Assembly: GCA_030538085.1 (NCBI GenBank)
Contig: JAUNUR010000025.1
Location: 1 to 38,492 of the forward strand
Reading direction: 5' to 3'
DNA from: Pseudomonadota bacterium
GTDB lineage: Bacteria; Pseudomonadota; Gammaproteobacteria; Burkholderiales; Burkholderiaceae_C
DNA length: 38,492 bases
Part shown: positions 1,546 through 31,280 of the stretch, one piece after another
How the letters are laid out: every line of letters begins with the position of its first letter
How positions within the stretch are numbered: position 1 is the first letter of the stretch
Notes under the pieces: generated by a model
Told to the model about the DNA's origin: nothing
The model's input: the letters and a program-made list of their open reading frames with translations, nothing else
The model's database searches: none
Made by a program: the position numbers and the translations under genes

Positions 1546-4458
<2,913 letters not shown>

Positions 4459-9269: not shown

Positions 9270-9276
9270 AGGGGTA

Positions 9277-9402: not shown

Positions 9403-11064
<1,662 letters not shown>

Positions 11065-11174: not shown

Positions 11175-12602
<1,428 letters not shown>

Positions 12603-12924: not shown

Positions 12925-12961
12925 TCCACCATGACCAACCTGACCTGCCTTGGAAACTAGT

Positions 12962-15253: not shown

Positions 15254-15298
15254 GTGGGATTGGGGGGGGTGGATCGAGGGCGCCATCTTGCCATGGCG

Positions 15299-15325
15299 GA
15301 TCGCCGCAATGACGGGCGAAGGCAT
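15299..15325. repeat. Degraded MITE fragment
   Basis: Read on the minus strand it gives ATGCCTTC, then CCGTCATTGCGGCGA, matching the left interior of the MITE with an eight-base deletion. Confidence 0.5.
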
Positions 15326-15659: not shown

Positions 15660-15878
15660 CTATTTGGTCAGGATCAGCTTGCCCAGCTTGGTGGCCTGCA
15701 GCCGGTAGACGGCGCCGTTGTGGCTGATCTCGATGGCGCGGCGCCCTTGCAGCAGGTGGTGGCTGGGCATGGGCGCGCTGGCGGCATCGGCTGGCGAGGT
15801 GTTCCGCGCACCCGGATCGGTGAGGGCGTTGTCAGGCGCTGCCGTGGCGCGGGTGCCCGGGGGCGGTTTCTTCGTCAT
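15660..15878 (-). CDS. hemP: Hemin uptake protein HemP
   Basis: This 72-residue protein has a disordered Pro/Ala-rich N-terminus and the complete HemP core SHHLLQGRRAIEISHNGAVYRLQATKLGKLILTK-like pattern at its C-terminus. The key elements are LLQGRR, I-x-I-x-H-x-G, YRL and the final GKLILTK. In rhizobia and Burkholderia the HmuP/HemP proteins are needed for expression or function of haem uptake systems. Its ATG overlaps the exbD stop (ATGA), indicating translational coupling. It is the last gene of the Fur-box-preceded tonB-exbB-exbD-hemP operon. Confidence 0.88.
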   Translation of the reverse strand: MTKKPPPGTRATAAPDNALTDPGARNTSPADAASAPMPSHHLLQGRRAIEISHNGAVYRLQATKLGKLILTK

Positions 15879-16294
15879 GGGGTGTCGTGCCTGGGCTCGG
15901 TGACGAAACCGATCTTGCTCAAGCCCGCCTGCTGCGCCGCCGCCATGGCCTGTGCCACGCGTTCGTAACGCACGTCCTTGTCGCCGCGGATGTGCAGATC
16001 GGGCTGCGGCTGCTTTTGCGCTTCGGCCCGCAACCTGGGTGGGAGCTGATCATCCGCAATCGGCTCCTCGCCCAGCCAGTAGCTGCCATCGGCCTGCACC
16101 GTCAGGCGCAAGGTCTGGGGCTGGATCACTTCCTTCTCGTTGCTGGCCTGCGGCAGCTGCACGTTCACGGCGTGCTTCATCACCGGCACGGTGATGATGA
16201 AGATGATGAGCAGCACCAGCATCACGTCGATGAACGGGACCATGTTGATCTCGCTCATCACCTCGTCGTGGTCGTCGGCGATGAATCCAGCCAT
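15875..16294 (-). CDS. exbD: Energy-transducing biopolymer transport protein ExbD
   Basis: This 139-residue protein has one N-terminal membrane segment. MVPFIDVMLVLLIIFIITVP contains the essential proton-path Asp23, and the periplasmic domain ends in KIGFVTEP. It forms the inner-membrane motor with ExbB to energise TonB. It starts one base after the exbB stop (TGAGATG) and overlaps hemP by four bases, so the block is one operon. Confidence 0.93.
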   Translation of the reverse strand: MAGFIADDHDEVMSEINMVPFIDVMLVLLIIFIITVPVMKHAVNVQLPQASNEKEVIQPQTLRLTVQADGSYWLGEEPIADDQLPPRLRAEAQKQPQPDLHIRGDKDVRYERVAQAMAAAQQAGLSKIGFVTEPRHDTP

Positions 16295-16295
16295 C

Positions 16296-17015
16296 TCAGG
16301 CGCCTTTCTTCAGGGGCACCACATTGCCTTCGTCACGGGCGGCGGTCACCCGCGCACCGGTCACGTGATACGCATGCAGGTCGTGCGCGAAGCGCCCCAG
16401 CTTGGCCAGGATGTGCTTGTTGCCCCGCACCAGCGCGTTGTAGCCCAGCACGGCGGGAATGGCCACCGCCAGGCCCAGCGCGGTCATGATGAGCGCCTCG
16501 CCAATGGGGCCGGCCACCTGGTCGATGCTGGCCTGGCCGGCGCTGCCGATCCGCATCAGCGCGTGGTAGATGCCCCAGACGGTGCCGAACAGACCCACGA
16601 AAGGCGCGGTGGAACCGACCGAGGCCAGAATCGCCAGGCCAGCCTGCAGCTTGCCCGTGGTGGCGTCGATGCTGTTGCGCAGCGCGCGCGAGATCCAGTC
16701 GCTGGCATCCAGACTGTCGTGCAGTTGTGCCTTGTGGGCACGGTGGTGGGCGGTGGCTTCGCGGCCTTCGATGGCGAGCTGGCGGAACGGGTTGCCGTCG
16801 GCATCGCCCAGCTTGGTCAGACCCTCGGCCATGTCGGCCGAGTGCCAGAAACTCTCGACCCGCGCCGCCTGGCGCTTGGCGCGCACCACATCCAGCGCCT
16901 TGATGAGGATCACCACCCACGAGGCCAGCGACATCAGCAGCAGCACCGCGAACACGCCGCGCGTGACCCAGTCGCCCTGGGTCCACACGTGCATCAAGCC
17001 AAACTCACCGTTCAT
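16296..17015 (-). CDS. exbB: Biopolymer transport protein ExbB (MotA/TolQ/ExbB family)
   Basis: This 239-residue protein has three membrane segments: residues about 18-40 (GVFAVLLLMSLASWVVILIKAL), then ILASVGSTAPFVGLFGTVWGI, then EALIMTALGLAVAIPAVLGYN. The last two carry the family signature. It is the scaffold subunit of the proton-driven motor that energises TonB. GGAG lies eight bases upstream of the ATG at 17015. The 113-base gap to tonB holds a GCCCGG/CCGGGC hairpin. Confidence 0.94.
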   Translation of the reverse strand: MNGEFGLMHVWTQGDWVTRGVFAVLLLMSLASWVVILIKALDVVRAKRQAARVESFWHSADMAEGLTKLGDADGNPFRQLAIEGREATAHHRAHKAQLHDSLDASDWISRALRNSIDATTGKLQAGLAILASVGSTAPFVGLFGTVWGIYHALMRIGSAGQASIDQVAGPIGEALIMTALGLAVAIPAVLGYNALVRGNKHILAKLGRFAHDLHAYHVTGARVTAARDEGNVVPLKKGA

Positions 17016-17128
17016 TTAGAAACTCCATGATTTGCTGTTCAAGACAAGGGGTAGCGGAGCAGGCCATGTCGGCGAACGCCATGCCCGGACCCGTGCCGGG
17101 CGCCGGCGCTGTCTCCTTGGGGAAAGTG

Positions 17129-17851
17129 TCATTCCAAGACGAATTTGATCGGCACGTCGAACCACATGGCCTCGGGCACGCCGCCCCGGGTGCCGGGCAC
17201 GTAGCGCCAGCGGTCGCGGGCGGTTTCCAGCGCCACCTGATCCAGCCGCTCGAAACCGCTGGAGCGCTGGATGCGCGCCTGGCTGGCGCGGCCATCGACA
17301 CCGATGAGCACGCGCACGACGGCGCGGCCCGTCTCGCCCAGGCGGCGGCTCATGGGCGGGTAGGGCGGCTCGGGGTTGTTGAGGTAGGCAGCGGTGGACG
17401 ACGGCTGCACCACCACGGGCGGGGGGGCAGGCACGGGCGCCGCCGCAACTGCCGTGGCGGGGGCTGCTGCGGCGGGCGCGGGTTCGGCCGCGACCGCAAC
17501 GTCCACCGGAGCCGGCTGGGCCGGTGCCGCGACTGGCGCCGCTGGCTGAGCCGGCGCCACCGGAGCGGGCCGTGGCGCGGCGCGTGGCTTGGGTGGTGGC
17601 GTGGGCCGGGGCTTTGGCGGCAGTGGTGCTGGTGGCGCGGGTGGTGGTGTGGGCGCGGCGGCGGGCGGAGTGGGCGTGATGAACTCCGCCAGGATTTGCG
17701 CCGACACGATCACCTCGGCTGGTTGACGCAGCAGTCCGCGCTGCAGCGCCCACAGCGCCACGGCATGCAGCAGCACGACGCTACCGATGATGAAGGCATG
17801 GCGGCCCAGAGGTGACACGGTGGGAAAAGGCGAGAGCGAAGTCGCGGACAT
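17129..17851 (-). CDS. tonB: Energy transducer TonB
   Basis: This 240-residue protein has a classic three-part build. An N-terminal signal anchor (FIIGSVVLLHAVALWAL) is followed by a long Pro/Ala linker (residues about 55-160, PPKPRPTPPPKPR and similar) that spans the periplasm. The C-terminal TonB domain carries YPPMSRRLGETGRAVVRVLIGVDG, SGFERLDQVALE and a final FVLE. It carries proton-motive energy to outer-membrane receptors such as the one at 21844-24177. It lies downstream of a Fur box, with two tiny ORFs between. Confidence 0.93.
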   Translation of the reverse strand: MSATSLSPFPTVSPLGRHAFIIGSVVLLHAVALWALQRGLLRQPAEVIVSAQILAEFITPTPPAAAPTPPPAPPAPLPPKPRPTPPPKPRAAPRPAPVAPAQPAAPVAAPAQPAPVDVAVAAEPAPAAAAPATAVAAAPVPAPPPVVVQPSSTAAYLNNPEPPYPPMSRRLGETGRAVVRVLIGVDGRASQARIQRSSGFERLDQVALETARDRWRYVPGTRGGVPEAMWFDVPIKFVLE

Positions 17852-17912
17852 GATACGAAAGCAGGACGCTGAGCAGCGCGCGGGCTGTTGGGGCGCTGGC
17901 GAGATACGCGAA

Positions 17913-18023
17913 TCAGTGCCGTGGCGGACGTTGAGCCGGGCCGCGGAATACCCAGGCCAGGCCAGCGAGCACCAGCCCCAGGCAGCCCAGGGTGGCCCAC
18001 AGCGCGGCGTCGGCCCCGGTCAT
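17913..18023 (-). CDS. Tiny membrane peptide upstream of tonB (candidate)
   Basis: This 36-residue ORF starts MTGADAALWATLGCLGLVLAG and ends FRGPAQRPPRH. It is one hydrophobic helix with a basic C-terminal tail, so the tail would face the cytoplasm or periplasm of a single-pass micro-protein. AAGGGAG lies ten bases before the ATG. It lies between the Fur box and tonB, with a 61-base gap to tonB, and its start overlaps the stop of the preceding tiny ORF (TGATG). I do not recognise a family; expression is unproven. Confidence 0.45.
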   Translation of the reverse strand: MTGADAALWATLGCLGLVLAGLAWVFRGPAQRPPRH

Positions 18024-18145
18024 CACGCCCGCGCTCCCTTGGTGCCATTCCCGTGGTGACTACGGTTACTGACCATGTGCATGCCGGTGCGGGCGTGTGG
18101 GGCGATGTCGCGCTTGGAAGCGCGGTTGTGGACGCAGGCGAGCAT
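18023..18145 (-). CDS. Tiny His- and basic-residue-rich ORF (candidate)
   Basis: This 40-residue ORF begins MLACVHNRASKRDIAPHART and contains MHMVSNRSHHG. It has six His and one Cys. AAAGG precedes the ATG at 18145 at a wide spacing. Its TGA overlaps the ATG of the next tiny ORF, suggesting coupling. It is the first ORF behind the Fur box, so it could be a leader peptide or a metal-binding micro-protein. It may also be chance. Confidence 0.3.
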   Translation of the reverse strand: MLACVHNRASKRDIAPHARTGMHMVSNRSHHGNGTKGARA

Positions 18146-18154
18146 GTGAAAACC

Positions 18155-18172
18155 TTTGAGGACAGCCTCTGA
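18155..18172. repeat. Solitary end of the GAGGCTG-family element
   Basis: TTTGAGGACAGCCTCTGAG equals the right end of 24350-24528. No second arm is nearby, so this is a relic or a solo terminal repeat. It lies in the leader between the Fur box and the tonB operon. Confidence 0.5.
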
Positions 18173-18201
18173 GATGCGAGTGGATAGCGAAACCAGATAT
18201 T

Positions 18202-18221
18202 AAATGAGAACCATTCTCATT
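18202..18221 (-). promoter_or_regulatory. Fur box of the tonB-exbB-exbD-hemP operon
   Basis: AAATGAGAACCATTCTCATT is an almost perfect Fur palindrome (AATGAGAA-N2-TTCTCATT). It faces the tonB operon with the two tiny ORFs in between and implies iron repression. The gap 18146-18486 otherwise holds the element remnants listed here; a plus-strand frame across it has no family features. Confidence 0.8.
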
Positions 18222-18359
18222 GTCAATGGCTGTATTCGCAATAGGTTCTTTTTTGGGGTGTCCTGCATCAGGAGCAGCAATGCCAACTCCAGATCACGGC
18301 TGCAAGACCTCGCCATTCCAGCGCAAAGCCGGCTCCGTAGCGCGATACGGGGCCGGAAT

Positions 18360-18499
18360 TCACACGGGTGTCCGCGGGGTCAACACCGTGTCAAGGTGAC
18401 GCCCCATGGATGGCGGCTTTCGCCGCAATGACGAGGGAATGTGAGGTTTTTTCCGATGGCCCGCGCTGTCGTGATTTTTGAAAATCTCAATAGCTTGAA
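18360..18499. mobile_element. MITE-like element, right part only
   Basis: It begins inside the element at CACACGGGTGTCCGCGGGG and runs to the right terminal repeat ending AATAGCTTGAA. The left third, including one hairpin arm, is missing. Its right terminal repeat contains the in-frame stop of the FMN dehydrogenase gene. Confidence 0.75.
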
Positions 18500-19677
18500 G
18501 TGGAAATGGAACAAGGACCGGTGTCCGCGCCGAGGTCGAGCAAGGGGGCTCCCGCATCGGCCAGCGTGCGGCAGCCAGTGAGGGCCATCGCCATTTCCAG
18601 TTCATCGCGCAGCAGGCGGATCATGCGGGCCACGCCCAGCGCGCCGCCTGCGGCCAGGGCGTGCACCACGGGGCGGCCAACCATGACGGCATTGGCGCCC
18701 AAGGCGATGGCCTTGAGCACGTCGGTGCCGCGGCGGATGCCGCCGTCGACGACGAGGGGCAGCGCATCGCCCACGGCTGCGCGCACCCGCGGCAGGGCCT
18801 GCGCGGTGGGCGGCGCGGTGTCGAGCGTGCGGCCACCATGGTTGCTGACGATGAGGCCGGCCACGCCCAGCGTTTGCGCGATGCGCGCGTCGGCCGGGTG
18901 CAGCACGCCCTTGAGCCACACGGGTAGCCGTGTTCGCGTGCGCAGCCAGGCCACGTCGTCCCAGGTAGGGGCGTGGGCGGGCAGGCCGGCGCAGTAGGTG
19001 TCGTCGGCCAGTGGCGCAGCGGGCGCATCCTGCAGGTGCACGGCGTGCACGCCGGGCGGCAGGGTGAAGGCGGCGCGGCGCTCGCGGTCGCGCATGCCGT
19101 GCACGGGAGCATCGACGGTGAGCACGATGGCCTCGAAGCCTGCGGCCTCGGCGCGTTGCACCAGCGCGTGGTTGAAGCCCCGGTCGGCCTGCCAATAGAG
19201 CTGAAACCACAACGGGCCGTGGCCAGGATCGGCCAGCACGGCTTCGGCGATCCGCTCCATGGGCATGTTCGATTGCGTGCTGAGCACGTAGCCCGCACCT
19301 TGCGCGGCGGCGGCCAGCGCGCTGGCCCATTCGCCATCGGGATGGGCCAGGCGCTGGTGCGCCACCGGCGCCAGAAAGATGGGGTGTGACAGCTCGTGAG
19401 TGACCAGCGTCACGCGCGTGTGGCCGCCGGCCAGCGGCTGCAGCACGCGCGGCCACAGGCGTGGGCTTTGCCAGGCGGCAAGGTTGTCTCGCAGGGTGGT
19501 TTCGTCGCCCGCTCCGCCTTGCAGATACGCCCATGCGGCGGTGCTCATGCGGTCTTGGGCGCATGCCTCGAAATCGGCCAGGCTCTGGGGCGTTGCCCTG
19601 GCCGTGGCGGTCAATGCCGGTGTGTCGCCTGCGTTACCCACCTCGTGCAGCCCGTGGTCCAAGCGCGTGCAACCCAT
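18487..19677 (-). CDS. FMN-dependent alpha-hydroxy-acid dehydrogenase (LldD/glycolate oxidase family)
   Basis: This 396-residue protein is a TIM barrel of the FMN-dependent 2-hydroxy-acid oxidase family. Visible motifs are FLAPVAHQRLAHPDGE, WFQLYWQADR, VLTVDAPVHGMRDRE, VSNHGGRTLD (catalytic His and Arg region) and DGGIRRGTDVLKAIALGANAVMVGRP (FMN phosphate loop). It oxidises lactate, glycolate or a similar acid; the substrate cannot be fixed. Its ATG lies inside the end of the upstream MFS gene (44-base overlap), so the two are probably coupled. The last three codons and the stop lie within a MITE end, so the natural C-terminus was probably replaced. Confidence 0.87.
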   Translation of the reverse strand: MGCTRLDHGLHEVGNAGDTPALTATARATPQSLADFEACAQDRMSTAAWAYLQGGAGDETTLRDNLAAWQSPRLWPRVLQPLAGGHTRVTLVTHELSHPIFLAPVAHQRLAHPDGEWASALAAAAQGAGYVLSTQSNMPMERIAEAVLADPGHGPLWFQLYWQADRGFNHALVQRAEAAGFEAIVLTVDAPVHGMRDRERRAAFTLPPGVHAVHLQDAPAAPLADDTYCAGLPAHAPTWDDVAWLRTRTRLPVWLKGVLHPADARIAQTLGVAGLIVSNHGGRTLDTAPPTAQALPRVRAAVGDALPLVVDGGIRRGTDVLKAIALGANAVMVGRPVVHALAAGGALGVARMIRLLRDELEMAMALTGCRTLADAGAPLLDLGADTGPCSISTSSY

Positions 19678-20854
19678 GGCGGTGCCGCAGCGCCGTGGCG
19701 ACGATGCTCAACACCATCGCGATGACCACGGCGGCCAGCGCGTACCAGTGCATCTGGTCGACATGGTGTGTCGCCAGCAGCAGGGCGCCCCAGGCGGCCC
19801 CGATGGCCTGGCCGCCATACATGGCGGAAGCGTTGAAGGCCACCGTGGCGGTCGCCGCGCCAGGCGCCAACCCAACCAGCCGCGACTGCTGGGCGGTGTT
19901 GGCGACGAAGATGGCGAGCGCCCAGGGCGCGATGACGGGCCACAGCAGGGTGGGGTTGCGCGTCAGTGGCCACAGCACCAGGCTGATGGCGATGCACCCC
20001 AGCGCCATCAGCAGCACGCGGTCGGCGCCGATCCGGTCCACGTAACGCGAGGCCACGGCATTGCCCACGAAACTGAGAATGCCGAACCAGGCGAACAGCA
20101 GGCTCAACTGGGTGGGGCCCAGACCCACCTCGTCACGGAAAAAGGGCGAGAAATACGCCAGCAGCATGAACTGGCCGCCAGAAAACAGGGCGCTGGCCAG
20201 AACGCACAGCGTGAGCACCGGGTTGCGCGCCAGCAGGCCCCAGGCGCGCAGGTTCAGGGGCGGTGGGCGAATGCCCGAGGGCATGGCGCGGGCCAGCCAC
20301 ACCGCGCTGATCAGCGACAGCAGCGACAGCGCCATGAAAGTGGCGCGCCACCCGAAGCGGTCGCCCGCCCAGGCCGACAGCGGCATGCCCAGCACCGAGG
20401 CGGCCGACCAGCCCAGAAACACGTAGGTCACGGCGCGGCCACGCTGGTCAGCCCTGGCCAGCCAGCCGACGCAGGCCGCCGCCTGCGGACTGAACAGGGC
20501 GGGCGCCAGCATCGAGGCCACGCGCAACGGCAGCAGGGTTTCCAGGCTGGGCGCGAATGCTTCGGCCAAATGCAGCACCGCGTACCACAGCATGCACAGC
20601 GTGAGCAGGTGGCGCCGGTCCCACTTGCCCACCAGTGCCGCCAGCACGGGCGCCGCGATGCAGATGGTGAGCGAGGCGGCTGAAATCAACACGCCCAGAT
20701 CGCTGGGGGCCGCGTTGAGCGAGCGCGCCATGTCGCGCAGCGTGCCCGCCACGACCATCACGCCGCTGCCAATGACGAAGTTTCCGAACAGCAAGCTGTT
20801 CAGAAATTTGGGTGATAGGGGCGTTTGCTGGACCACGCCAGCGGACGACTCCAT
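19634..20854 (-). CDS. MFS transporter, DHA1-like
   Basis: This protein of about 406 residues has roughly 12 hydrophobic segments. It starts at the ATG at 20854 (MESSAGVVQQTPLSPKF). GKWDRRHLL in the loop between helices 2 and 3 is the expected MFS motif A position, and RVASMLAPALFSPQAAACVGWLA resembles drug/proton antiporters of the AraJ/YdhP group. An extra TTG start three codons upstream is possible. Overlap with the hydroxy-acid dehydrogenase suggests export or uptake of a related acid, but the substrate is unknown. The 150-base leader shows no Fur box, so iron control is not supported. Confidence 0.82.
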   Translation of the reverse strand: MESSAGVVQQTPLSPKFLNSLLFGNFVIGSGVMVVAGTLRDMARSLNAAPSDLGVLISAASLTICIAAPVLAALVGKWDRRHLLTLCMLWYAVLHLAEAFAPSLETLLPLRVASMLAPALFSPQAAACVGWLARADQRGRAVTYVFLGWSAASVLGMPLSAWAGDRFGWRATFMALSLLSLISAVWLARAMPSGIRPPPLNLRAWGLLARNPVLTLCVLASALFSGGQFMLLAYFSPFFRDEVGLGPTQLSLLFAWFGILSFVGNAVASRYVDRIGADRVLLMALGCIAISLVLWPLTRNPTLLWPVIAPWALAIFVANTAQQSRLVGLAPGAATATVAFNASAMYGGQAIGAAWGALLLATHHVDQMHWYALAAVVIAMVLSIVATALRHRHGLHALGPRAARGG

Positions 20855-21003
20855 GGTGGACAAGGGTGGGCACCAGAGAATTAATACGTTCGTTCATTGT
20901 GGGCATGTCGGCAGGCCATATCGCCACAAAACGGCTTCATTCACCCAGTCAAGGGGGTGAAAAATTCACGCCAGTGGAAGATTCGTTTCTTGTCCGGTAC
21001 AGC

Positions 21004-21723
21004 TCAAGTATTCGCCCACTGGCGTAATAGATTGTGGTACACGCCTGTCAACCGGGTGGCTTCGGCACTCTCGCCGTGCCGCTGACGCAGCGCGAGCAGG
21101 GCCATGTCCATCTCGAACAGCAGGCGGCGCTGCTCGCCCGAGCGCACCATGCTCTCGATCCACAGAAAGCTGGCCAGGCGCGTGCCGCGGGTGACGGGCG
21201 TGACCTCGTGCACGCTGGTGCCTGGGTAGAGGATGGCGTCGCCCGCGGGCAGCTTGATGCGCTGCGCGGCGTCGCCGGGCGCGCCGTGCACCACCAGCTC
21301 GCCGCCGTCGTAATCCTGCGGGTCGCTGAAGAACACGGTGCACGACAGGTCGCTGCGCACCCATTGCCCGCTGGCGGCCGAGTGCATGACGGCGCCGTCG
21401 ACGTGCGCGCCGTAGTGGTCACCGTGTGGGTCGGCGTGGTCGGCGCCGTGGCTGTTGTAGCGGTTGAACAGCGGGTTGAAGATCTTGCGCGGCAGCGCAG
21501 CCGACAGCACCAGCGCATCGCGCTGCAGCGCACCCAGCACCAGTGCGCGCAGCGTGGCGGCGGTGGCGCTGTCTTGCGCCAGTTGCTGGTTCTGCTTGAC
21601 GCCCACGGCCTGCGTGCCGGCGCTGTGGCGGCCGTCGCGCCAGGAGGCGTCGGGCGCGGTGAGCAGTGCGTGGCCCTGGGCCAGTTCGTCGGGGGTGAGC
21701 AGTTGTTTGAGATGGATCAGCAT
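21004..21723 (-). CDS. piuC: Fe(II)/2-oxoglutarate hydroxylase PiuC (YbiX)
   Basis: This 239-residue PKHD-type dioxygenase has the iron triad His107-x-Asp109 (GAHVDG) and His172 (TSVHEV), and the 2-oxoglutarate-binding Arg182 (GTRLASF). PiuC/YbiX genes characteristically accompany Fiu/PiuA catecholate siderophore receptors, as here with the receptor just upstream on the same strand. The enzyme's substrate is not known. Directly before the HxD motif lies a His/Asp-rich stretch, NSHGADHADPHGDHY, longer than I recall in typical homologues. The intergenic region toward the receptor holds an inverted repeat. Confidence 0.9.
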   Translation of the reverse strand: MLIHLKQLLTPDELAQGHALLTAPDASWRDGRHSAGTQAVGVKQNQQLAQDSATAATLRALVLGALQRDALVLSAALPRKIFNPLFNRYNSHGADHADPHGDHYGAHVDGAVMHSAASGQWVRSDLSCTVFFSDPQDYDGGELVVHGAPGDAAQRIKLPAGDAILYPGTSVHEVTPVTRGTRLASFLWIESMVRSGEQRRLLFEMDMALLALRQRHGESAEATRLTGVYHNLLRQWANT

Positions 21724-21735
21724 GGGGTTTTCTGA

Positions 21736-21840
21736 TGACGAAATGACTTTGCCGCTGGCGCGGCGTCAATGACGGAATGACGGGTCTTGGTCAAGGCGGC
21801 GCAGCCGCCGTCATCGAAGCGCAGCGAGGTCATTTCGTCA
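21736..21840. repeat. Inverted-repeat element between receptor and piuC
   Basis: TGACGAAATGAC (21736-21747) and GTCATTTCGTCA (21829-21840) are perfect 12-base arms around GCGGCG and CGCCGC segments. A relative with ATGACGAATGAC arms is at 35734-35823. It fills almost the whole gap. Confidence 0.65.
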
Positions 21841-21843
21841 TGC

Positions 21844-24177
21844 TCAGAACAGGTGCTTCAAGGTCAGCTGCACGCGCCGTGGCTGCCCCGGCCCATAGAA
21901 GCCGCGGTACAGCGTGTCGGCATAGAGCTTGTCGGTGAGGTTGGTGACGTTGAGCTTGAGCGTGGTCATCTCGGTGAAGCTGTATTCGGCCATCGCATCG
22001 AAGGTGACGAAGCCGGCGGCCTTCACCGCGCGGCTGCCTTCGGGGTTCTGGCTGCTGCGGTAGTTGGCGCCCAGGCCCAAGCGCAGCTTCGGCATTACGC
22101 GGTAAGTGCTCCACACGCTGCCGCTGTGGCGCGGCGTGAGGCCGGGGCGGTCGCCCTGCACTTGCGCACCGCCGCCGTTGGCGGCCAACGGCTGGTTGCT
22201 GCGGCTGATCTTGGCGACGGGGATCCAGGTGTGGTTCCAGAACATCTCCCATTTGGGCGTGATGCGGCCGGCGGCGTTGAACTCCATGCCCGCGGCGTGG
22301 CGCTTGCCCGACAGCAGAAACTGCTGGGCCACGCTGTCGGGGTCCTGGTTGCGCTCGTTGTACTTCTCGGAATAAAACAGCGCCGTGCCGACCGACAGGC
22401 GCTGGTCGAGTAGCTCCCACTTGCCGCCGATCTCGAAGTTGCGGCTTTTTTCGGCGGGCGTGCTGGCCAGCTTCTGGTCAGGACTGCGGGGGGTGAACTG
22501 GTAGGCGTCGCCCGAGGTGTTGTACGAAGTGCCGTACGACAGGTAGTACGACGCCGTCTCGCTGGGCTGCCACAGCAAGCCGACGCGCGGGCTCCACAGG
22601 CTTTCGGTCTTGCTGAAGCTGTAGCCGGGCGTGACGGTGCCGTTGGCGGCGGTGGTGGCCACGGTGTCGTAGCTGCCCTTGAAGTGGTCGAAACGCAGGC
22701 CGGCCACCAGCTTCAGCGTGTCGGTCAGCGACACCGTGTCCTGCACGTACACGCCCAGGTTGCGCGCGTCGAAGGTGTTGTAGGCCGGCGTGTCGCGCGG
22801 GTCGGCGCGCCAGTCGCCGTTGTTGGGCTGGCCCACGGTGGTGGTCAGGCCGCTGTTTGGGCCGGCGAAGTTGTTGACGCGGCGTGAATCGTCGACATAG
22901 AAGTCCACGCCCGCCAGGATCTGGTGCTGGCGCCCGCCCCAGTCGTAGGTGTTGCTGTAGTCGCTTTGCAGTTGCGTCAGGTCGCTGCGGCCGATGCGGC
23001 CCTTGGGCGTGCGTGTGATGAGGGTGCTTGGCCCCCAGTTGTCGATGGTGGTGGGCGCGCCATCGGTCTGGCCAAAGCGGATCACGCTGGTCCACAAATC
23101 GCGCTCGTAGCGGCCGTGGCGCAACTGCGTCTTCAACTGACCACCATCGGCAAAGCGGTGTGTGTGTGCCAGCGTCAGGTAGGTGGACGAGCTGTTCTGC
23201 TTGTCGCTGTCAAGGCCGTAGAAATTGCGTGCCGGTAGCAGGGGCACGATCCGGCCATCGCGAATGAACCAAGGGTGGTTGTAGCCGTTGCGACCCTTTA
23301 CATCCAGGTGATAGAAGCCCACCAGGAACTCGTTGCGCGTGCCGATGCCCCAGCGGAAGGTGGGCGCGATGCCGACCTTGCGCTGCCGGGCGCCCCAGTT
23401 GTCGGCGTCGTGGCCCATCAGGTTCAGGCGGAAGGCGGCGTCTTGCCCCGTGTGCCAGTTGAAGTCGCCGTGCACGCGCTTTTCGTTGCCGTTGCCCACG
23501 GTCACGCTGGCCTCGTGCTGCGTCATCAAGAAAGGCTGCTTGCTCACCTGGTTGACCACGCCGCCGGTGCTGCCCTTGCCGAACAGCATCGACGCCGAGC
23601 CCTTGATGACTTCCACGCGGTCGTCGTTGAAGGTGTCGCGCTCGATCAGCGGCGCGTCGCGCAGGCCGTCGCGATAGATGTCGCCCGCCGTGCCCAGCGA
23701 GAAGCCGCGCAGGCGCACGTCTTCCTCGCCCGTCTCGCCGGCCTGGAAGCTGACGCCGGCGGTGGTGCGCAGCACCTCGCGGAAGTCGTCCAGGTTGCGG
23801 TCCTGCATCAGCTTTTCGGTCATCACCGTCACGCTCTGCGGAATGTCGCGCAGCGCCTGGTTGCCCTTGCCGATTTCGGTGCGGGTGGCGCGCAACTGCG
23901 TCTTGCTGTGGGTGGCCCCATCATCCTGCGCCGAGTCGCGCACCGTGACGGCGGGCAAGGTGCCGGTCACAGGGGCGGCGGCCGACGGCGATGCGGTAGG
24001 TGCCGCTGGCGCACCCTGCGCCCAAGCGGGTGCCCCCAGCGAACTGGCCAGCAAGATGGCGCCTAGGGGCAGCAGGGGGGTGGTGGAAGCTGGTTCAGCT
24101 ATTGAAAGGGGAGATGCCCGCTTTTGCGGCGCAAGCGTGCGGGGGGTGGTGGGGTTGGAGAAGTGATCAACGAACAT
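21844..24177 (-). CDS. TonB-dependent catecholate-type siderophore receptor (Fiu/PiuA-like)
   Basis: This 777-residue outer-membrane receptor has a signal sequence at residues about 35-54 (LLPLGAILLASSLGAPAWAQ) and a TonB-box-like LPAVTVRD. The plug domain runs from about 80 to 200 (IPQSVTVMTEKLMQDRNLDDFREVLRTT, VRLRGFSLGTAGDIYRDGLRD, VEVIKGSASMLFGKGSTGG). A 22-strand barrel follows, ending in the expected aromatic (TLKHLF). I chose the ATG at 24177; an in-frame TTG at 24240 would add 21 residues that do not fit a signal peptide. A Fur box lies 118 bases upstream. The piuC gene follows, the usual Fiu/PiuA partner. It takes up ferric catecholate siderophores by inference. Confidence 0.9.
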   Translation of the reverse strand: MFVDHFSNPTTPRTLAPQKRASPLSIAEPASTTPLLPLGAILLASSLGAPAWAQGAPAAPTASPSAAAPVTGTLPAVTVRDSAQDDGATHSKTQLRATRTEIGKGNQALRDIPQSVTVMTEKLMQDRNLDDFREVLRTTAGVSFQAGETGEEDVRLRGFSLGTAGDIYRDGLRDAPLIERDTFNDDRVEVIKGSASMLFGKGSTGGVVNQVSKQPFLMTQHEASVTVGNGNEKRVHGDFNWHTGQDAAFRLNLMGHDADNWGARQRKVGIAPTFRWGIGTRNEFLVGFYHLDVKGRNGYNHPWFIRDGRIVPLLPARNFYGLDSDKQNSSSTYLTLAHTHRFADGGQLKTQLRHGRYERDLWTSVIRFGQTDGAPTTIDNWGPSTLITRTPKGRIGRSDLTQLQSDYSNTYDWGGRQHQILAGVDFYVDDSRRVNNFAGPNSGLTTTVGQPNNGDWRADPRDTPAYNTFDARNLGVYVQDTVSLTDTLKLVAGLRFDHFKGSYDTVATTAANGTVTPGYSFSKTESLWSPRVGLLWQPSETASYYLSYGTSYNTSGDAYQFTPRSPDQKLASTPAEKSRNFEIGGKWELLDQRLSVGTALFYSEKYNERNQDPDSVAQQFLLSGKRHAAGMEFNAAGRITPKWEMFWNHTWIPVAKISRSNQPLAANGGGAQVQGDRPGLTPRHSGSVWSTYRVMPKLRLGLGANYRSSQNPEGSRAVKAAGFVTFDAMAEYSFTEMTTLKLNVTNLTDKLYADTLYRGFYGPGQPRRVQLTLKHLF

Positions 24178-24294
24178 GGTTAGCCCAGCAAAGTGTGCGG
24201 AAAAACTTTGGCTGGCTACTTGGGCGCTGTGTGAAGACAAGAGGCCGTCACCGCGCTCTTCGCTGGCGTGTGTGAATCGACGATTCTATATGCA

Positions 24295-24528: not shown

Positions 24529-26295
24529 TCAGGCTGATTTCAGCGTGGTGCCATTGGCTGGCTTCAGGCCCGCCTTGCTTTCGATGAAGTCGTTCATCGC
24601 CAGGGCCAGCGCTTGCCTGCGAAACCGCAGGAAGTCCCGGTAGGCGCTGGTGCTCCATAGAGCCGGATCGGTGGGCACGCATTGACTGATCAGGGCAGCC
24701 GGGCCACGCGCGGCCACCACGCTGGCGAGATACTGGGTGGCGTCTTTGTTGCTGATGCGCTGGTTCGTCAGGCCCGTGATGAAAGCCATGTTGGCGATCT
24801 CGTTGATTTCGCCCGGCTCGTAACCCTTTTCCTTGAGCAGCGATTTGGGAATGACGTGATGCCACTGGATGAAGTGGAGCCGACCCTGGTGCGTGAGCGA
24901 CAAACCCAGTCCGTTGTGCCAGTCGGTGGCGCCCGCGTGCTTGAGCGCCAGATAAGCCAGCGAGAACAGCGGGCTGCCGACGCCGCGATGCGCGAGATCA
25001 CCCGGCTCGATGGTCAACCGCCCGAACTGGCGCCTGACCGGCTCCATCAAACCGGCGATGGCACCGGTCTTGAACAGGATATTGAGGTCTTCGTTCAGCA
25101 GCGTCTCGGTGGAGCCGCGCGAATAGCGGCCACGCGCATTGGCCACCAGCAGCCAATGGAGCAGGGCCTGGCTTTCCGCAGCTTCGAGCCGGTTGTTCTT
25201 GATCTTGCTCACCACGGCCAATACATGAATGAACATGGGCGAGGAAAGCAGGGACTCGTCTTCGATGCCCGCGTTGCTGCGCAGAAAGTTGATGGCAAAG
25301 CGCAAGCCATTTTGTGCTTCGGCCCAGCCGGCCTTGAGCTTGTCGATGGGGGTGGCCGCCACGCTGCGGAACAGGCATTGCTGGGTGGCGAAGACGACGA
25401 TGGCGCGCACCAGATGGCCCAGGTCGATACTGAACCAGACTTTCTCGCACTCGGCCTGAAAGGCTTCGAGCTCCTTGAGCAGATTGGGCCAACGCGAGGT
25501 CATCTGCGCCAAGGCCAGGTCGGACGAGCGCAGCTTGGCGCCCAGCGAATTCACGCGCACGAAGATCTCGGTCACTTCCTCGTAGCTCATCCGGCGCTCC
25601 AGCACGTGCACGACGTACTGGTAGTCCTTGATGGAGCGCAACTGCTTCAGCCGGGCGGCGTAGCGTTCGTAACGCGGGTCGTCGAACGAGGTCACGCCGG
25701 CCTTCTTGAGGAACTCCGCATCACTGCCGACGCGGAACACATCGGTCACCGATACCCAGTTCGGCAGCGCGGCCAAGGTCTTGCTTGCCACCACGAACGT
25801 GCGGCGACGGAGCTTTTCCTGGAGCGCTTGATCGGTTTCGTCACTGTCGTCGGCGTCTGCCTCATCGGTGACATCGTCGTCCGCCACGACGGGAGAGTCC
25901 TCGTCGCTGGTTACCTCGGTGTCGTTCAGAGGTGGTCCTTCGGGGTGATCGAGGTTGAAAAGAATGTCGATGGGGCGCTTGCGTCCCCGGACTTGAACCT
26001 GCTGTCCGCCCAGAACGGCGGTGAGCGAGGTCAGGCGTTGTTGGCCGTCGAGCAGCAGCTTGCGTCCGGCAAATCCGCTGCGGTCTTGCGCGATGGCGAA
26101 GTCGCGCGTTGGCACCGGCTCATCGGTTTCCCACATCAGAATGGAGCCGCTGGGATAGCCTCGGTAAAGCGAATCCAGCAGGTCGCGCACGCGGGTGGCG
26201 CGCCACACGTACTGGCGCTGGATTTCGGGCAGCCGCAACTCGCCCCGTTTGTACATGTCGACCAGGGTGCCGATGGGGATGTTCTGTTGCTGCAT
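24529..26295 (-). CDS. DUF262 / HNH-type protein (GmrSD-like)
   Basis: This 588-residue protein has an N-terminal DUF262 (ParB/Srx-like NTPase) domain with LPEIQRQYVW at residues 23-31 and LLDGQQRLTSL at 81-91. A strongly acidic linker follows (about 121-160, DEDSPVVADDDVTDEADADD). A helical middle contains EIFVRVNSLGAKLRSSDLALA. The C-terminus carries WHHVIPKS near residue 478, then INEIANMAFIT and NQRISNKD, the HNH-like nuclease pattern of GmrD/DUF1524 proteins. Such proteins include the type IV restriction enzyme GmrSD, which cuts modified phage DNA. No methylase or partner gene is adjacent, so it may act alone. I chose the ATG at 26295; the frame runs up to 26379. Confidence 0.82.
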   Translation of the reverse strand: MQQQNIPIGTLVDMYKRGELRLPEIQRQYVWRATRVRDLLDSLYRGYPSGSILMWETDEPVPTRDFAIAQDRSGFAGRKLLLDGQQRLTSLTAVLGGQQVQVRGRKRPIDILFNLDHPEGPPLNDTEVTSDEDSPVVADDDVTDEADADDSDETDQALQEKLRRRTFVVASKTLAALPNWVSVTDVFRVGSDAEFLKKAGVTSFDDPRYERYAARLKQLRSIKDYQYVVHVLERRMSYEEVTEIFVRVNSLGAKLRSSDLALAQMTSRWPNLLKELEAFQAECEKVWFSIDLGHLVRAIVVFATQQCLFRSVAATPIDKLKAGWAEAQNGLRFAINFLRSNAGIEDESLLSSPMFIHVLAVVSKIKNNRLEAAESQALLHWLLVANARGRYSRGSTETLLNEDLNILFKTGAIAGLMEPVRRQFGRLTIEPGDLAHRGVGSPLFSLAYLALKHAGATDWHNGLGLSLTHQGRLHFIQWHHVIPKSLLKEKGYEPGEINEIANMAFITGLTNQRISNKDATQYLASVVAARGPAALISQCVPTDPALWSTSAYRDFLRFRRQALALAMNDFIESKAGLKPANGTTLKSA

Positions 26296-26427
26296 GGGCG
26301 GCTTCAATGGAGTGGATGACCAGGAGTCACCGAGAAAAGCGCGGCCCGCTTTACACGGCTGCTCATGAACGGCGGTCAACTGACAGAGATTCTAGGCAGT
26401 CGGCTTGTTTGGATAATTCGAAGAAGA

Positions 26428-26441
26428 TGCACAATAATGCA
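26428..26441 (+). promoter_or_regulatory. BoxR-type operator at the start of the formate dehydrogenase genes
   Basis: TGCACAATAATGCA has the same TGCA-N6-TGCA form as the box operators at 8247, 8273 and 9277. It overlaps the likely start codon of the fds operon, and a -10-like GATAAT lies at 26412-26417. A protein bound here would block initiation. Recognition by BoxR is inferred. Confidence 0.55.
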
Positions 26442-28152
26442 TAACATGATTGAGATAAGCATCAAAATTCATCCGCGACGACCTCGCCACCAGTTGAAGG
26501 GGCGGCAGCCGACGGATGCGGCGCGTGCCGAGGTGCGCGCGCTGATCGGCGCACCGCCGGCCGATGGGCACCGGCGTGACCTGCTGATCGAGCACCTGCA
26601 CGCGCTGAACGATCACTACCATGGCCTGTTCGAGCGGCACTTGGTGGCGCTGGCGGCTGAGATGCGCTTGTCGATGGCCGAGGTGGTTGAGGTGGCGAGC
26701 TTTTACCACCACTTCGATGTGCTGCGCGACGACGCCACGGCGCCGCGCCTGACGGTGCGGGTGTGCCAGTCGCTCAGCTGCCAGCTGGCGGGTGCCGAGG
26801 ATTTGCTGGCGCGCTTGCCCGCGCTGCTGGGGGCGGAAGTGCAGGTGGTGGCCGCGCCCTGCGTCGGCCGTTGCGAGCAGGCGCCAGCCGCGCTGGTCGG
26901 CCAACGCGCGCTGGGCCATGCGACGGCGCAGGACATCGTTTCAATGTTGAATCAGGCTTCAATGCCCGCCAATCCAGCGCAAGCAGCTCCTGAATTGATA
27001 GCTTTCGAGATCTATCGCCAAGGCGGCGGCTACACGCTGGCTCACAGCGTGGCGCGCGGCGAGCGCGATGCCGAAGGCGTGATGGCCGCGCTGGAACACG
27101 CCGGCCTGCGCGGCCTGGGCGGCGCGGGTTTTCCGGCGGGGCGCAAGTGGCGCATCGTGCGCGGCTTTGAAGGACCACGGTTGATGGCGGTGAACATCGA
27201 CGAGGGCGAGCCGGGCACCTTCAAGGATCGCTTCTATCTGGAGCGCGACCCGCACCGCTTTCTGGAAGGGATGCTGATCGCGGCGCACGTCGTGGGCTGC
27301 GAGGCCGTCTACATCTACCTGCGCGACGAATACCCCGAGTGCCGCGCCATCCTGACGCAGGCCATCGCCGATCTGCAAGGCGCCCCCGATCTGCGCGGAC
27401 TGCTCCCCAAAATAGAGTTGCGCCGTGGAGCTGGCGCCTACATCTGCGGCGAAGAGTCGGCCATGATCGAGTCGATCGAAGGCAAGCGTGGCGAGCCGCG
27501 CCTGCGCCCGCCCTACATCGCCGAGCGCGGCCTGTTCGGCCGCCCGACGCTGGAGCACAACTTCGAGACGCTGTTCTGGGTGCGCGAAATCCTGGAGCGC
27601 GGCCCCGACTGGTTCGCCGCCCAGGGCCGCCATGGCCGCAAGGGCCTGCGCAGCTACAGCGTCAGCGGCCGGGTGAAGCAGCCGGGCGTCAAGCTGGCGC
27701 CGGCCGGCATCACGTTGCGTGAGCTGGTCGACGAATATTGCGGTGGCATGGCCGAGGGGCACGCGCTGTACGCCTACCTGCCCGGCGGCGCCAGCGGCGG
27801 TATCCTGCCCGCGCGCCTGGCCGACGTGCCGCTGGACTTCGACACGCTGCAGCCGCATGGCTGCTTCATCGGCAGCGCGGCGGTGATCGTGCTGAGCGAT
27901 CACGACAGCGCACGCGATGCGGCATTGAACATGATGCGCTTCTTCGCCGACGAGAGCTGCGGCCAGTGCACGCCCTGCCGCGTCGGTACCGTGAAGTCCG
28001 CGCAGTTGATGGAAGCGCCGGTGTGGGACGCGGCCACGCTGAATGATCTGAGCACCGTGATGGTCGATGCCTCCATCTGCGGCCTGGGCCAGGCGGCGCC
28101 CAACCCCGTGCTGTGCGTGCAGCGCTACTTTCCGCACGAGGTGGAGCCATGA
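26437..28152 (+). CDS. NAD-dependent formate dehydrogenase, fused gamma-beta subunit (FdsG-FdsB)
   Basis: This protein of about 571 residues joins two diaphorase subunits. Residues about 1-165 are NuoE/FdsG-like, with VASFYHHFDV and a [2Fe-2S] site CQSLSC and CVGRC. A linker of about 25 residues follows. The remainder is NuoF/FdsB-like, with GLRGLGGAGFPAGRKW and NIDEGEPGTFKDRFYLE for FMN and NADH, and the [4Fe-4S] ligands SCGQCTPCRVG plus SICGLG. It passes electrons from FdsA to NAD+. The start is uncertain: ATG at 26437, or 26446. The linker DNA (26972-27005) resembles an intergenic repeat. Its stop overlaps the fdsA start (ATGA). Confidence 0.85.
   Translation: MHNMIEISIKIHPRRPRHQLKGRQPTDAARAEVRALIGAPPADGHRRDLLIEHLHALNDHYHGLFERHLVALAAEMRLSMAEVVEVASFYHHFDVLRDDATAPRLTVRVCQSLSCQLAGAEDLLARLPALLGAEVQVVAAPCVGRCEQAPAALVGQRALGHATAQDIVSMLNQASMPANPAQAAPELIAFEIYRQGGGYTLAHSVARGERDAEGVMAALEHAGLRGLGGAGFPAGRKWRIVRGFEGPRLMAVNIDEGEPGTFKDRFYLERDPHRFLEGMLIAAHVVGCEAVYIYLRDEYPECRAILTQAIADLQGAPDLRGLLPKIELRRGAGAYICGEESAMIESIEGKRGEPRLRPPYIAERGLFGRPTLEHNFETLFWVREILERGPDWFAAQGRHGRKGLRSYSVSGRVKQPGVKLAPAGITLRELVDEYCGGMAEGHALYAYLPGGASGGILPARLADVPLDFDTLQPHGCFIGSAAVIVLSDHDSARDAALNMMRFFADESCGQCTPCRVGTVKSAQLMEAPVWDAATLNDLSTVMVDASICGLGQAAPNPVLCVQRYFPHEVEP
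26972..27005 (+). repeat. Comamonadaceae-type repeat relic inside the fusion linker
   Basis: ATCCAGCGCAAGCAGCT equals the core of the arm at 14375-14391, and TTGATAGCTTT follows as in the same repeat family. It encodes linker residues between the FdsG and FdsB domains. Confidence 0.6.
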
Positions 28153-31100
28153 ATGCACCGCTGAAACCCGAAGCGCTGGCCAGCGTGGCGTTCGAGCTGG
28201 ATGGCCGCGCCGTGGAGGCCTTCGAGGGCGAAACCATCCTGAAGGCCGCTGAACGACACGGCGTCGAAATCCCGCGCCTGTGCTTCACGGATGGCCTGCG
28301 TGCCGACGGCAACTGCCGTGCCTGCGTGGTCGAGATCGAGGGCGAGCGCGTGCTGGCGCCCAGCTGCTGCCGCGCCGTGCAACCGGGCATGAAGGTGAAG
28401 GCGAGCAGCGAGCGGGCACGCAAGTCGCAGGACATGGTGCTGGAGCTGCTGCTGGCCGAGATGCCGGAGCAGGGGTTCAAGTGGAACGATGCCGACCCTC
28501 ACCCCAACCCTCTCCCGCGCGCGGGAGAGGGGGCAATACCTCCGCTGGCGCCGGGAGCGTCCATCGGTACGGTGGACTCCCTCTCCCGCCGGGTGGGAGA
28601 GGGCGGGGGGGAGGGTGAAGCCTTCATCGGCCAGCACGGCGAACTCACCCACTGGGCCGCACGCGCGGGTGTGACCGTCCGCCCCGCCCTGCAAGCTCTC
28701 ACACGCGAGCAACCCGCTGCCGACCTTAGCCACCCGGCCATGGCCGTCAACCTCAGCGCCTGCATCCAGTGCACGCGCTGCGTGCGCGCCTGCCGCGAGG
28801 CGCAGGTCAACGACGTGATCGGCTACGCCGGCCGCGGCAGCCATGCGCGCATCGTGTTCGATCTACAGGACCCGATGGGCGCCAGCACCTGCGTGGCCTG
28901 CGGCGAATGTGTGCAGGCCTGCCCCACGGGCGCGCTGATGCCGAAGACGCACATCGGCCCGCAGAAGGTCGATCGGCAGGTCGATTCCGTCTGCCCGTTC
29001 TGCGGCGTCGGCTGCCAGATCACCTACAACGTGCGCGATGAGCGGATCATCAGCGTGACGGGCCGCGATGGCCCGGCCAACGAGAAGCGCCTGTGCGTGA
29101 AAGGGCGCTTCGGCTTCGACTACGTGGCCAGCCCGGAACGCATCACCACGCCGCTGATCCGCCGCGACGATGCGCCGAAGAACGTCGAGCATTGCGAGCA
29201 GCACCCCGACTGGCGCAGCGTGTTCCGCGAAGCGACGTGGGACGAGGCGCTTCAGCTTGCCGCCGGCAAGCTGGTCGAACTGAAAGGCCAGCACGGCCCG
29301 AAAGCGCTGGCCGGCTTCGGCAGCGCCAAGGGCAGCAACGAAGAGGCCTACCTGTTCCAGAAGTTAGTGCGCACCGGCTTTGGCAGCAACAACGTCGACC
29401 ACTGCACGCGCCTGTGCCATGCGTCCAGCGTGGCGGCGCTGCTGGAGGGCGTGGGCTCGGGCGCCGTCAGTAACCCGGTGAAGGACGTCGAGTTCGCCGA
29501 GCTGATCCTCATCATCGGCTCCAACCCCACCGCCAACCACCCGGTGGCCGCCACGTGGATGAAGAACGCGGCGCAGCGTGGCGCGAAGATCGTGCTGGCC
29601 GACCCGCGCGTGACCGACATCGCGCGCCACGCCTGGCGCGTGCTGCCCTTCACCCCCGGTGCCGACGTGGCGATGCTGAATGCGCTGCTGCACGTGATCG
29701 TGAACGAAGGGCTGGTGGACGAAGACTTCATCCGCGAGCGCGCCGACAACTACGCCGCGCTGGTGGCCAACGTGCAGGGCTACAGCCCCGAGGCGATGGC
29801 GCCGATTTGCGGCATCCCGGCCGCCACGCTGCGCGAAGTGGCGCGCGCGTATGCCACGGCCAAGGCCAGCATCATCCTGTGGGGCATGGGCGTGAGCCAG
29901 CACGTGCACGGCACCGACAACGTGCGTTGTCTGATCGCTCTGGCCACCTGCACCGGCCAGATCGGCCGTCCCGGCACCGGCCTGCACCCGCTGCGCGGCC
30001 AGAACAACGTGCAGGGCGCCAGCGATGCGGGGCTGATCCCCATGATGTACCCCAACTACCAGCGCGTGGCCGATGCATCGGCGCGGGAGTGGTTCGAGGA
30101 CTTCTGGGGCCAGCCGCTGGACCCCGAGCCGGGCTACACGGTGGTCGAGATCATGCACAAGGCGCTGGCCGATGACAGCGACCCGCACAAGGTGCGCGGC
30201 ATGTACATCATGGGCGAGAACCCGGCCATGAGTGACCCCGACCTGAACCACGCCCGCGCCGCCCTGGCCGCGCTGGAGCACTTGGTGGTGCAGGACATTT
30301 TTCTGACCGAAACCGCCTGGCTGGCCGACGTGGTGCTGCCTGCGTCGGCTTGGCCTGAGAAGACCGGTACCGTCAGCAACACCGACCGCATGGTTCAACT
30401 GGGCCAGCAGGCGCTGCAGCCGCCGGGCAGCGCCAGAGCGGATCTGTGGATCATTCAGCAGATGGCGCAGCGTATGGGGCTGGATTGGCGCTGTGACTCG
30501 GAGACACCCTCCCCCGCTGGGGGAGGGCTGGGGTGGGGGCGAGCCAAGCTGCCATCGGATGCGCCGTCTGCCCCTCACCCCAGCCCTCTCCCCAAAGGGG
30601 CGAGGGAGCAAGGCGCCACAGACGGCGACCGCAGCGCCCTGGAACTCCCTCTCCCGCTGGCGGGAGAGGGCAGGGGTGAGGGTGTGGCCCACTACCACGG
30701 CGTCGCCACCGTCTACGACGAAATGCGCCGCGCCATGCACGGCGCCATCGCGGGCATCACCTGGGAGCGCCTGCAGCGCGAAAGCAGCGTCACCTACCCG
30801 TGTCTCAGCGAATACGACCCCGGCCAGCCCATCGTCTTCACCGACGGCGTGCCCACGCCCAACGGCAAGGTGCAACTGGTGCCCGCCGACATCGTCCCGC
30901 CCGATGAGAGGCCCGATGCTGATTACCCCATGGTGCTGATCACCGGCCGCCAGTTGGAGCACTGGCACACCGGCGCCATGACGCGCCGCTCCGAAGTGCT
31001 GCACGCCATCGAGCCCGGCCCTACGGTCAGCATGCATGGCGACGACCTGGCGCGCCTGGGCCTGCAGCCGGGCGCGGTCGCCCGCGTGCAATCGCGCCGT

Positions 31101-31280
31101 GGCGAGGTCGAGCTGACGGTGCGCCGCGACGACGGCACGCCGCCCGGCAGCGTGTTCATCCCCTTCGCCTACCGCGAGGCGGCGGCCAACCTGCTCACCA
31201 ACGCCGCGCTCGACCCGTTCGGCAAGATCCCGGAGTTCAAATACTGCGCGGTGCGGGTGCTTGCAGCCCCTGTAGCCTGA
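28149..31280 (+). CDS. fdsA: Molybdenum formate dehydrogenase catalytic subunit FdsA, with in-frame repeat insertions
   Basis: This 1043-residue protein oxidises formate to CO2 at a molybdenum bis-MGD centre. In order: an N-terminal [2Fe-2S] domain (GLRADGNCRACV, SCCR), two [4Fe-4S] sites (CIQCTRCVRACREA, CVACGECVQACPTGAL), CPFCGVGCQITYNV for a further [4Fe-4S], then the molybdopterin domains with the catalytic pair Cys423-His424 in CTRLCHASS. The C-terminal domain carries ITGRQLEHWHTGAMTRRS. Two stretches, residues about 116-157 and 786-848, are translations of REP-like DNA (PHPNPLPRAGEG and similar) absent from the fold; they explain the extra length over about 950 residues. The ATG at 28149 overlaps the previous stop. 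It is an NADH source by inference. Confidence 0.9.
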   Translation: MNAPLKPEALASVAFELDGRAVEAFEGETILKAAERHGVEIPRLCFTDGLRADGNCRACVVEIEGERVLAPSCCRAVQPGMKVKASSERARKSQDMVLELLLAEMPEQGFKWNDADPHPNPLPRAGEGAIPPLAPGASIGTVDSLSRRVGEGGGEGEAFIGQHGELTHWAARAGVTVRPALQALTREQPAADLSHPAMAVNLSACIQCTRCVRACREAQVNDVIGYAGRGSHARIVFDLQDPMGASTCVACGECVQACPTGALMPKTHIGPQKVDRQVDSVCPFCGVGCQITYNVRDERIISVTGRDGPANEKRLCVKGRFGFDYVASPERITTPLIRRDDAPKNVEHCEQHPDWRSVFREATWDEALQLAAGKLVELKGQHGPKALAGFGSAKGSNEEAYLFQKLVRTGFGSNNVDHCTRLCHASSVAALLEGVGSGAVSNPVKDVEFAELILIIGSNPTANHPVAATWMKNAAQRGAKIVLADPRVTDIARHAWRVLPFTPGADVAMLNALLHVIVNEGLVDEDFIRERADNYAALVANVQGYSPEAMAPICGIPAATLREVARAYATAKASIILWGMGVSQHVHGTDNVRCLIALATCTGQIGRPGTGLHPLRGQNNVQGASDAGLIPMMYPNYQRVADASAREWFEDFWGQPLDPEPGYTVVEIMHKALADDSDPHKVRGMYIMGENPAMSDPDLNHARAALAALEHLVVQDIFLTETAWLADVVLPASAWPEKTGTVSNTDRMVQLGQQALQPPGSARADLWIIQQMAQRMGLDWRCDSETPSPAGGGLGWGRAKLPSDAPSAPHPSPLPKGAREQGATDGDRSALELPLPLAGEGRGEGVAHYHGVATVYDEMRRAMHGAIAGITWERLQRESSVTYPCLSEYDPGQPIVFTDGVPTPNGKVQLVPADIVPPDERPDADYPMVLITGRQLEHWHTGAMTRRSEVLHAIEPGPTVSMHGDDLARLGLQPGAVARVQSRRGEVELTVRRDDGTPPGSVFIPFAYREAAANLLTNAALDPFGKIPEFKYCAVRVLAAPVA
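28496..28618. repeat. REP-like inverted pair inside fdsA
   Basis: ACCCTCACCCCAACCCTCTC at the left and GGGAGAGGGCGGGGGGGAGG at the right are inverted copies, each also a hairpin (CTCTCCCGCGCGCGGGAGAG on the left). The unit is in frame and without stop codons. Confidence 0.85.
30506..30685. repeat. Three REP-like hairpins inside fdsA
   Basis: Three units are seen: around 30508-30542 (CCCTCCCCCGCTGGGGGAGG), 30574-30605 (CCCCTCACCCCAGCCCTCTC, then CCAAAGG) and 30645-30685 (CCCTCTCCCGCTGGCGGGAG). Orientation alternates. The insertion stays open in the fdsA frame. Confidence 0.85.

Follow-up and report, generated by a model that had tools for sequence, protein, structure and literature searches.

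A predicted BoxR operator over the predicted -10 element of a formate dehydrogenase operon

Introduction

When a box pathway releases formate, is the enzyme that could oxidise it placed under the same control as the pathway itself? The question is raised by a 38,492-nucleotide stretch of bacterial DNA (contig JAUNUR010000025.1, assembly GCA_030538085.1; the window, meaning the whole stretch analysed), part of a 3.5 Mb genome (G000), which carries a bclA-boxR-boxCBA cluster and an fdsGB-fdsA operon for a predicted formate dehydrogenase. BoxR is a repressor according to literature cited in the accessible text of PMC6449761, and boxC encodes the source of formate. A preliminary description of the window had noted TGCA-N6-TGCA pairs around boxR and at the start of fds and proposed that BoxR controls fds. 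The present analysis supports that proposal, and we put the probability at about 80% that a 16-base BoxR operator at 26427-26442 overlies the fds -10 element and controls fds. Support comes, at the level of sequence, from specificity across the genome, a bounded conserved footprint, absence of the right arm in the two fds genomes with no detected boxR, recurrence of this sequence at the box promoters of other genera, and relatives in which fds follows boxA.

Results

The BoxR consensus used was the 16-mer ATGCACTATAGTGCAT published by Suvorova and Gelfand (2019, PMC6449761), who studied 32 Betaproteobacteria species and derived it by phylogenetic footprinting; it was searched with a tolerance of up to 3 mismatches, the reversed pattern serving as control. 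On the forward strand, the predicted fds operator at 26427-26442 (ATGCACAATAATGCAT) matched 14/16 consensus bases (2 mismatches), tied best in the genome. Its TGCA-N6-TGCA core at 26428-26441 reads TGCACAATAATGCA and occupies positions -18 to -5 relative to the genus-conserved ATG at 26446. All four exact pairs in the preliminary description (8247-8260, 8273-8286, 9277-9290 and 26428-26441) lie at the coordinates it gave, and a search of the window found no further one; its list was complete for exact pairs but omitted a degenerate site at 9308-9323. The last pair had been placed over the fds start; the ATG at 26437 falls inside the dyad and is probably not the start codon, the conserved ATG being that at 26446. 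Between 26250 and 26560, TGCA occurs only at 26291, 26428 and 26438.

A consensus scan placed the predicted fds promoter, TGGATA-17-AATAAT, at 26410-26438 on the forward strand (9/12; mean of shuffles 0.2). Its -10 hexamer, a consensus match and no proof of function, spans 26433-26438 inside the operator, which accordingly stands in the core-promoter location expected of BoxR. No Shine-Dalgarno sequence was seen by eye upstream of the ATG at 26446. The operator occupies the Shine-Dalgarno place and stops 4 bases short of the ATG, so that a leaderless or nearly leaderless fds transcript is probable.

Counts of bare TGCA-N6-TGCA were rejected as a test because the pattern is too frequent: the window holds 4 copies, a count that is not significant, as 100 shuffles gave a mean of 1.78 and 9/100 reached at least 4, and the genome holds 33 vs 12 for the reversed control. 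A scan of the genome, as the preliminary description had suggested, was specific with the fuller BoxR 16-mer: at up to 3 mismatches G000 has five matches, every one of them within the window (reversed control, 1). These are 8246-8261 (2 mismatches), 8272-8287 (3), 9276-9291 (3), 9308-9323 (3) and 26427-26442 (2), four at box promoters and one at fds. Two other dyads were considered as further BoxR sites and dropped. TGCAAAAAAGTGCA, at 11126-11139 of contig C22 in G000, was set aside because G004 and G007, both without a detected boxR, carry it too; it is shared by 13/29 genus genomes in total (G000 and 12 more), and a different regulator probably binds it. TGCAACAAAATGCA, on contig C12, has 5 mismatches to the 16-mer by hand count and lies outside the five matches.

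The fds site was also used as a probe. An fds-derived pattern, TGCANAATAATGCA, was searched in 399 family genomes and the neighbourhood of each match was read for about 1.5 kb on each side. It was found at 24 places in 22 genomes (reversed control, 1), of which 14 lie beside bclA, boxR, boxC or boxB and 2 at fds (G000 and G002). This use of the fds-site sequence by BoxR-type promoters elsewhere is the strongest indication of a BoxR site at fds, beyond a mere -10 element. The exact core at its start-codon spacing occurred, among 399 genomes of the order, in G000 alone; that sample did not contain G001, G002 or G017.

Conservation was assessed in a genus set of 29 genomes, with FdsGB counted at 66% identity or more and BoxR at 58% or more. 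FdsGB was present in 11 (a looser tally gave 28/29, the remainder being about 40% identical and probably NuoF) and BoxR in 15 (28 in a looser tally, mostly shikimate-kinase-like matches). Nine genomes had both proteins, two had FdsGB without BoxR (G006 and G016) and six had BoxR without FdsGB. One of the nine, G013, was unreadable at the site, as the N-terminal end of FdsGB is missing, which leaves eight. The preliminary description had expected the site to be kept upstream of fds in relatives, and this was mostly borne out: four of the eight (G000, G001, G002 and G017) carry the exact core, three keep the site with changes in the arms, and G027 is a miss. In the seven genomes other than G027, columns -18 to -5 had a mean majority of 6.64/7 vs 3.46/7 for -200 to -19, where the best other 14-column stretch reached 3.79/7; with G027 included, the figures are 7.14/8 for the site, 3.88 for the flanks and 4.50 for the best other stretch. 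Between G000 and G002 the dyad is identical at 14/14 positions and the flanks (-60 to -19) at 17%. In G002 the two genes are on separate contigs: fds occupies about 36-38 kb of C7 (94,765 bases) and boxR sits near 327 kb of C23 (397,749 bases). The distances to the contig ends put at least about 106 kb between them.

The two genomes with fds and no detected boxR, G006 (99% complete) and G016 (76% complete), carry TGCACAAT with an unchanged spacing to the ATG, but have GCCCG in place of AATGC, the right arm being absent in both. They are sister rows in the FdsGB tree, so this absence may be a single event. Throughout the genus comparison, the full fds site was seen in boxR-bearing genomes only.

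Outside the genus, FdsGB relatives were taken as the best 80 loci from named genomes, the nearest of which were Comamonadaceae. Box genes were present in the same locus in 25/80 (L001-L023, L038 and L068). In every one of L001-L023, 13 of whose 23 records are titled Limnohabitans, one strand carries both the boxA and the FdsGB alignment, separated by 2 to 276 bases; the stretch includes boxR in 15/23, and the remaining stretches end early at contig ends. The gap is 2,135 bases in L038 and 1,578 bases in L068, with an apparent transporter and thiolase between (by eye). Upstream of fds in L001-L023 the best match to the 16-mer has 5 to 8 mismatches, so these fds genes appear to have no site of their own. 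Upstream stretches were examined for 53 of the 55 loci without box genes, two being too short, and none of the 53 held a BoxR-like site, the best matches having 6 to 9 mismatches, as in control stretches (4 mismatches or fewer in 8/2,471). The genomes of 22 of these 55 loci were searched for boxR, which was present in 15; boxR alone therefore does not put fds under BoxR.

A tree of 88 FdsGB sequences was built with a quick method and no bootstrap, after exclusion of four short or broken loci and a duplicate locus. In it, sequences from the genus and those located at box fell on one side of a branch with a Shimodaira-Hasegawa-like approximate likelihood ratio (SH-aLRT) value of 99. This group of 33 rows comprises 24 box-located sequences, 8 from the genus and 1 other (L025); L038 lies outside it. 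The pairing goes with the genus/box-located FdsGB lineage. One member of L001-L023, L008, is a contig titled Akkermansia muciniphila whose box and fds genes group with Limnohabitans, probably a mislabelled bin.

At the box cluster, the predicted operators at 8246-8261 and 8272-8287 lie in the bclA-boxR intergenic region, and that at 9276-9291, together with the degenerate second one at 9308-9323, belongs to boxC (all given on the forward strand). Three of them overlap predicted promoters, which are consensus matches only. The site at 8272-8287 lies in the spacer of the predicted minus-strand bclA promoter, TTGACG-16-TAAGAT; at the predicted boxC promoter, TTGACC-17-TATTAT, one site abuts the -35 element (TTGACC from 9291) and the other covers the -10 element (TATTAT, 9314-9319). 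The predicted layout at fds, boxC and bclA, with site upon promoter, is that of a repressor competing with polymerase.

The genes themselves fit the assigned roles. On the minus strand, bclA (6558-8147; start by eye) encodes benzoate-coenzyme A (CoA) ligase (TIGR02262, 812.8 bits). The forward-strand boxR (8340-9269) encodes a repressor with an XRE helix-turn-helix and a shikimate-kinase-like domain (NF006015, 431.5 bits against a cut-off of 204; HTH_3 and SKI). It is followed on the same strand by boxC for 2,3-epoxybenzoyl-CoA dihydrolase (9403-11064; TIGR03222, 986.4 bits; frame open from 9355, ATG 9403 by eye), boxB for a benzoyl-CoA 2,3-epoxidase subunit (11175-12602; TIGR03225, 906.1 bits) and boxA for the reductase subunit (12950-14278; Fer4 and NAD_binding_1 domains and its position after boxB).

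Also on the forward strand, fdsGB (26446-28152; PF01257, PF01512 and PF10589; genus-conserved start) encodes a fusion of FdsG (2Fe-2S) and FdsB (flavin mononucleotide, 4Fe-4S), and fdsA (28113-31280; TIGR01591, 705.9 bits against a cut-off of 666.25) the formate dehydrogenase alpha subunit; the fdsA coordinates are those of the longest open frame, and the true start may be further in. With FdsG, FdsB and FdsA domains present and fdhD elsewhere in the genome, the predicted product is a formate dehydrogenase of the Fds type, linked to nicotinamide adenine dinucleotide (NAD). A second formate-dehydrogenase-alpha-like gene near fdhD, at 21683-27846 of contig C93 in G000, scores 407 bits, below the cut-off; fds may therefore not be the sole formate route. 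Among the relatives, fdsGB is interrupted in G001 (L091) and reads as two frames in G025 (L086/L110).

Between boxA and fds lies a minus-strand block at 14690-24240 (DUF1439, ExbD, ExbB, TonB, FMN-dehydrogenase, MFS, PKHD-type hydroxylase and TonB receptor), followed by a minus-strand GmrSD_N-domain gene (24529-26295; PF03235; start by eye) as the divergent neighbour of fds. Because these opposite-strand genes intervene, read-through from boxCBA into fds is unlikely. A similar layout of the block is present in G001 and G025, and parts of the TonB-ExbB-ExbD, TonB receptor and PKHD-type hydroxylase block recur near fds in G001, G006, G016, G017 and G025. In another locus, L211 (contig C40 of G017), two BoxR-like dyads 31 bases apart lie at about 3143-3189, just 5' of an open frame that by eye resembles glyoxalase I and is possibly another BoxR target.

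Discussion

Could the conserved stretch be explained without BoxR? It might be merely the -10 element (CACAAT or AATAAT) of a leaderless fds transcript, with incidental TGCA arms. The promoter scan does place a -10 element there; the inner 11 bases, CACAATAATGC, are near-invariant (10/11 columns at 7/7) and the outermost arm bases vary, and both boxR-less genomes keep TGCACAAT at an unchanged ATG distance. The spacer is moreover better conserved at fds than at the box sites, and the promoter may account for some of the footprint, a point that also counts against BoxR control. We nevertheless consider a -10 element by itself an unlikely explanation: all seven boxR genomes have the right-arm TGC, which is absent from the two without boxR, box promoters in other genera bear this 14-base pattern (14/24 places), and in G000 the BoxR consensus at 3 mismatches has no match other than those at box and fds. 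It is less probable still that a different regulator with a TGCA-type half-site binds at fds. The occurrence of TGCAAAAAAGTGCA in 13/29 genus genomes, G004 and G007 among them, does mean that a TGCA dyad need not point to BoxR, but that dyad is not among the G000 matches to the 16-mer at 3 mismatches, and the full fds site was observed only where boxR is present. Least credible is a functionless chance match; the bare pattern does occur 33 times in the genome, but the fds site is conserved amid diverged flanks and its fuller sequence is rare there.

Several findings weigh against BoxR control of fds. A single dyad stands at fds, and BoxR sites are described in PMC6449761 as almost always multiple, although this is a usual trait and not a required one. 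Eight of the 24 places matching TGCANAATAATGCA lie at neither box nor fds within about 1.5 kb, as read by eye. Arm bases are changed at the fds site in G019 (1), G025 (1) and G015 (2), and mismatches to the 16-mer, 2 in G000 and 3 in G001 and G002, rise to 4 in G017 and to 5 in G019, G025 and G015. G027 has fds, and boxR 12 kb away, yet nothing resembling the site upstream of fds (8 mismatches). The specificity seen in G000 is also not general, as 24/29 genus genomes were matched by the 16-mer at up to 3 mismatches; among the matches listed, three in G001 and two in G002 are at neither box nor fds, and boxR-less genomes carry 0 to 3 each.

If BoxR does control fds, then in the absence of benzoate it would sit on 26427-26442 and block RNA polymerase at fds, as at bclA and boxC. 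Accumulating benzoyl-CoA would release BoxR, and bclA, boxCBA and fdsGB-fdsA would be induced together; formate freed by BoxC would then be converted by the NAD-linked formate dehydrogenase to CO2 and NADH. The carbon balance of the box pathway would be closed on a single signal, the formate carbon of BoxC leaving as CO2 with a gain of NADH whenever the pathway is on, and BoxR would act beyond its own gene cluster. A broader proposal, which we hold to be reasonably probable, is that a benzoate-dedicated formate dehydrogenase lineage is tied to BoxR by two wirings: a position after boxA in Limnohabitans and its kin, and a free-standing, leaderless fds with the operator as its -10 element in the genus of the window, the operator staying with fds where the gene lies away from box and decaying with loss of boxR. 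The two lineages would then form a natural experiment in the control of a helper gene, by position after boxA in one and by its own operator in the other.

The preliminary description knew of no report of fds in a BoxR regulon. This holds for an operator of fds's own, but inclusion of a formate dehydrogenase had already been suggested: PMC6449761 proposes that in Azoarcus EbN1 co-transcription might bring FdhBA into the BoxR regulon, where it would oxidise the formate from BoxC. For a free-standing fds with its own BoxR operator, no earlier report was found in the full-text literature, which leaves most subscription papers outside; PMC4782131, PMC5594585 and PMC5818466, by their accessible text, concern SAR324 bacteria, oil sediments and a biphenyl consortium. 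The apparent novelty lies in fds as a free-standing operon with a dedicated predicted operator, located in G002 on a contig other than that of box.

Compared with known systems, the FdsGB of Variovorax, Polaromonas, Rhodoferax and others is the same fused enzyme as in the window, without box genes in the stretch examined or a BoxR-like site upstream (53/53). With the BoxR/BzdR regulon of Betaproteobacteria, as far as the accessible text of PMC6449761 describes it, the window shares the type of BoxR, the 16-base TGCA-N6-TGCA operator and the divergent bclA-boxR-boxCBA arrangement; it differs in that a free-standing fds operon has its own predicted operator. FdhBA of Azoarcus sp. EbN1 (COG1894, COG3383) is, in the same text, the same kind of enzyme by COG, with the same proposed role on BoxC formate, but its inclusion there was suggested from a short distance to the lactonase gene, whereas here the predicted operator is dedicated to fds and opposite-strand genes lie between. 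L001-L023 have a neighbouring FdsGB lineage and the same pairing of fds with box; there, fdsGB-fdsA stands directly downstream of boxA without its own site, and in the window it would answer to BoxR through an operator of its own.
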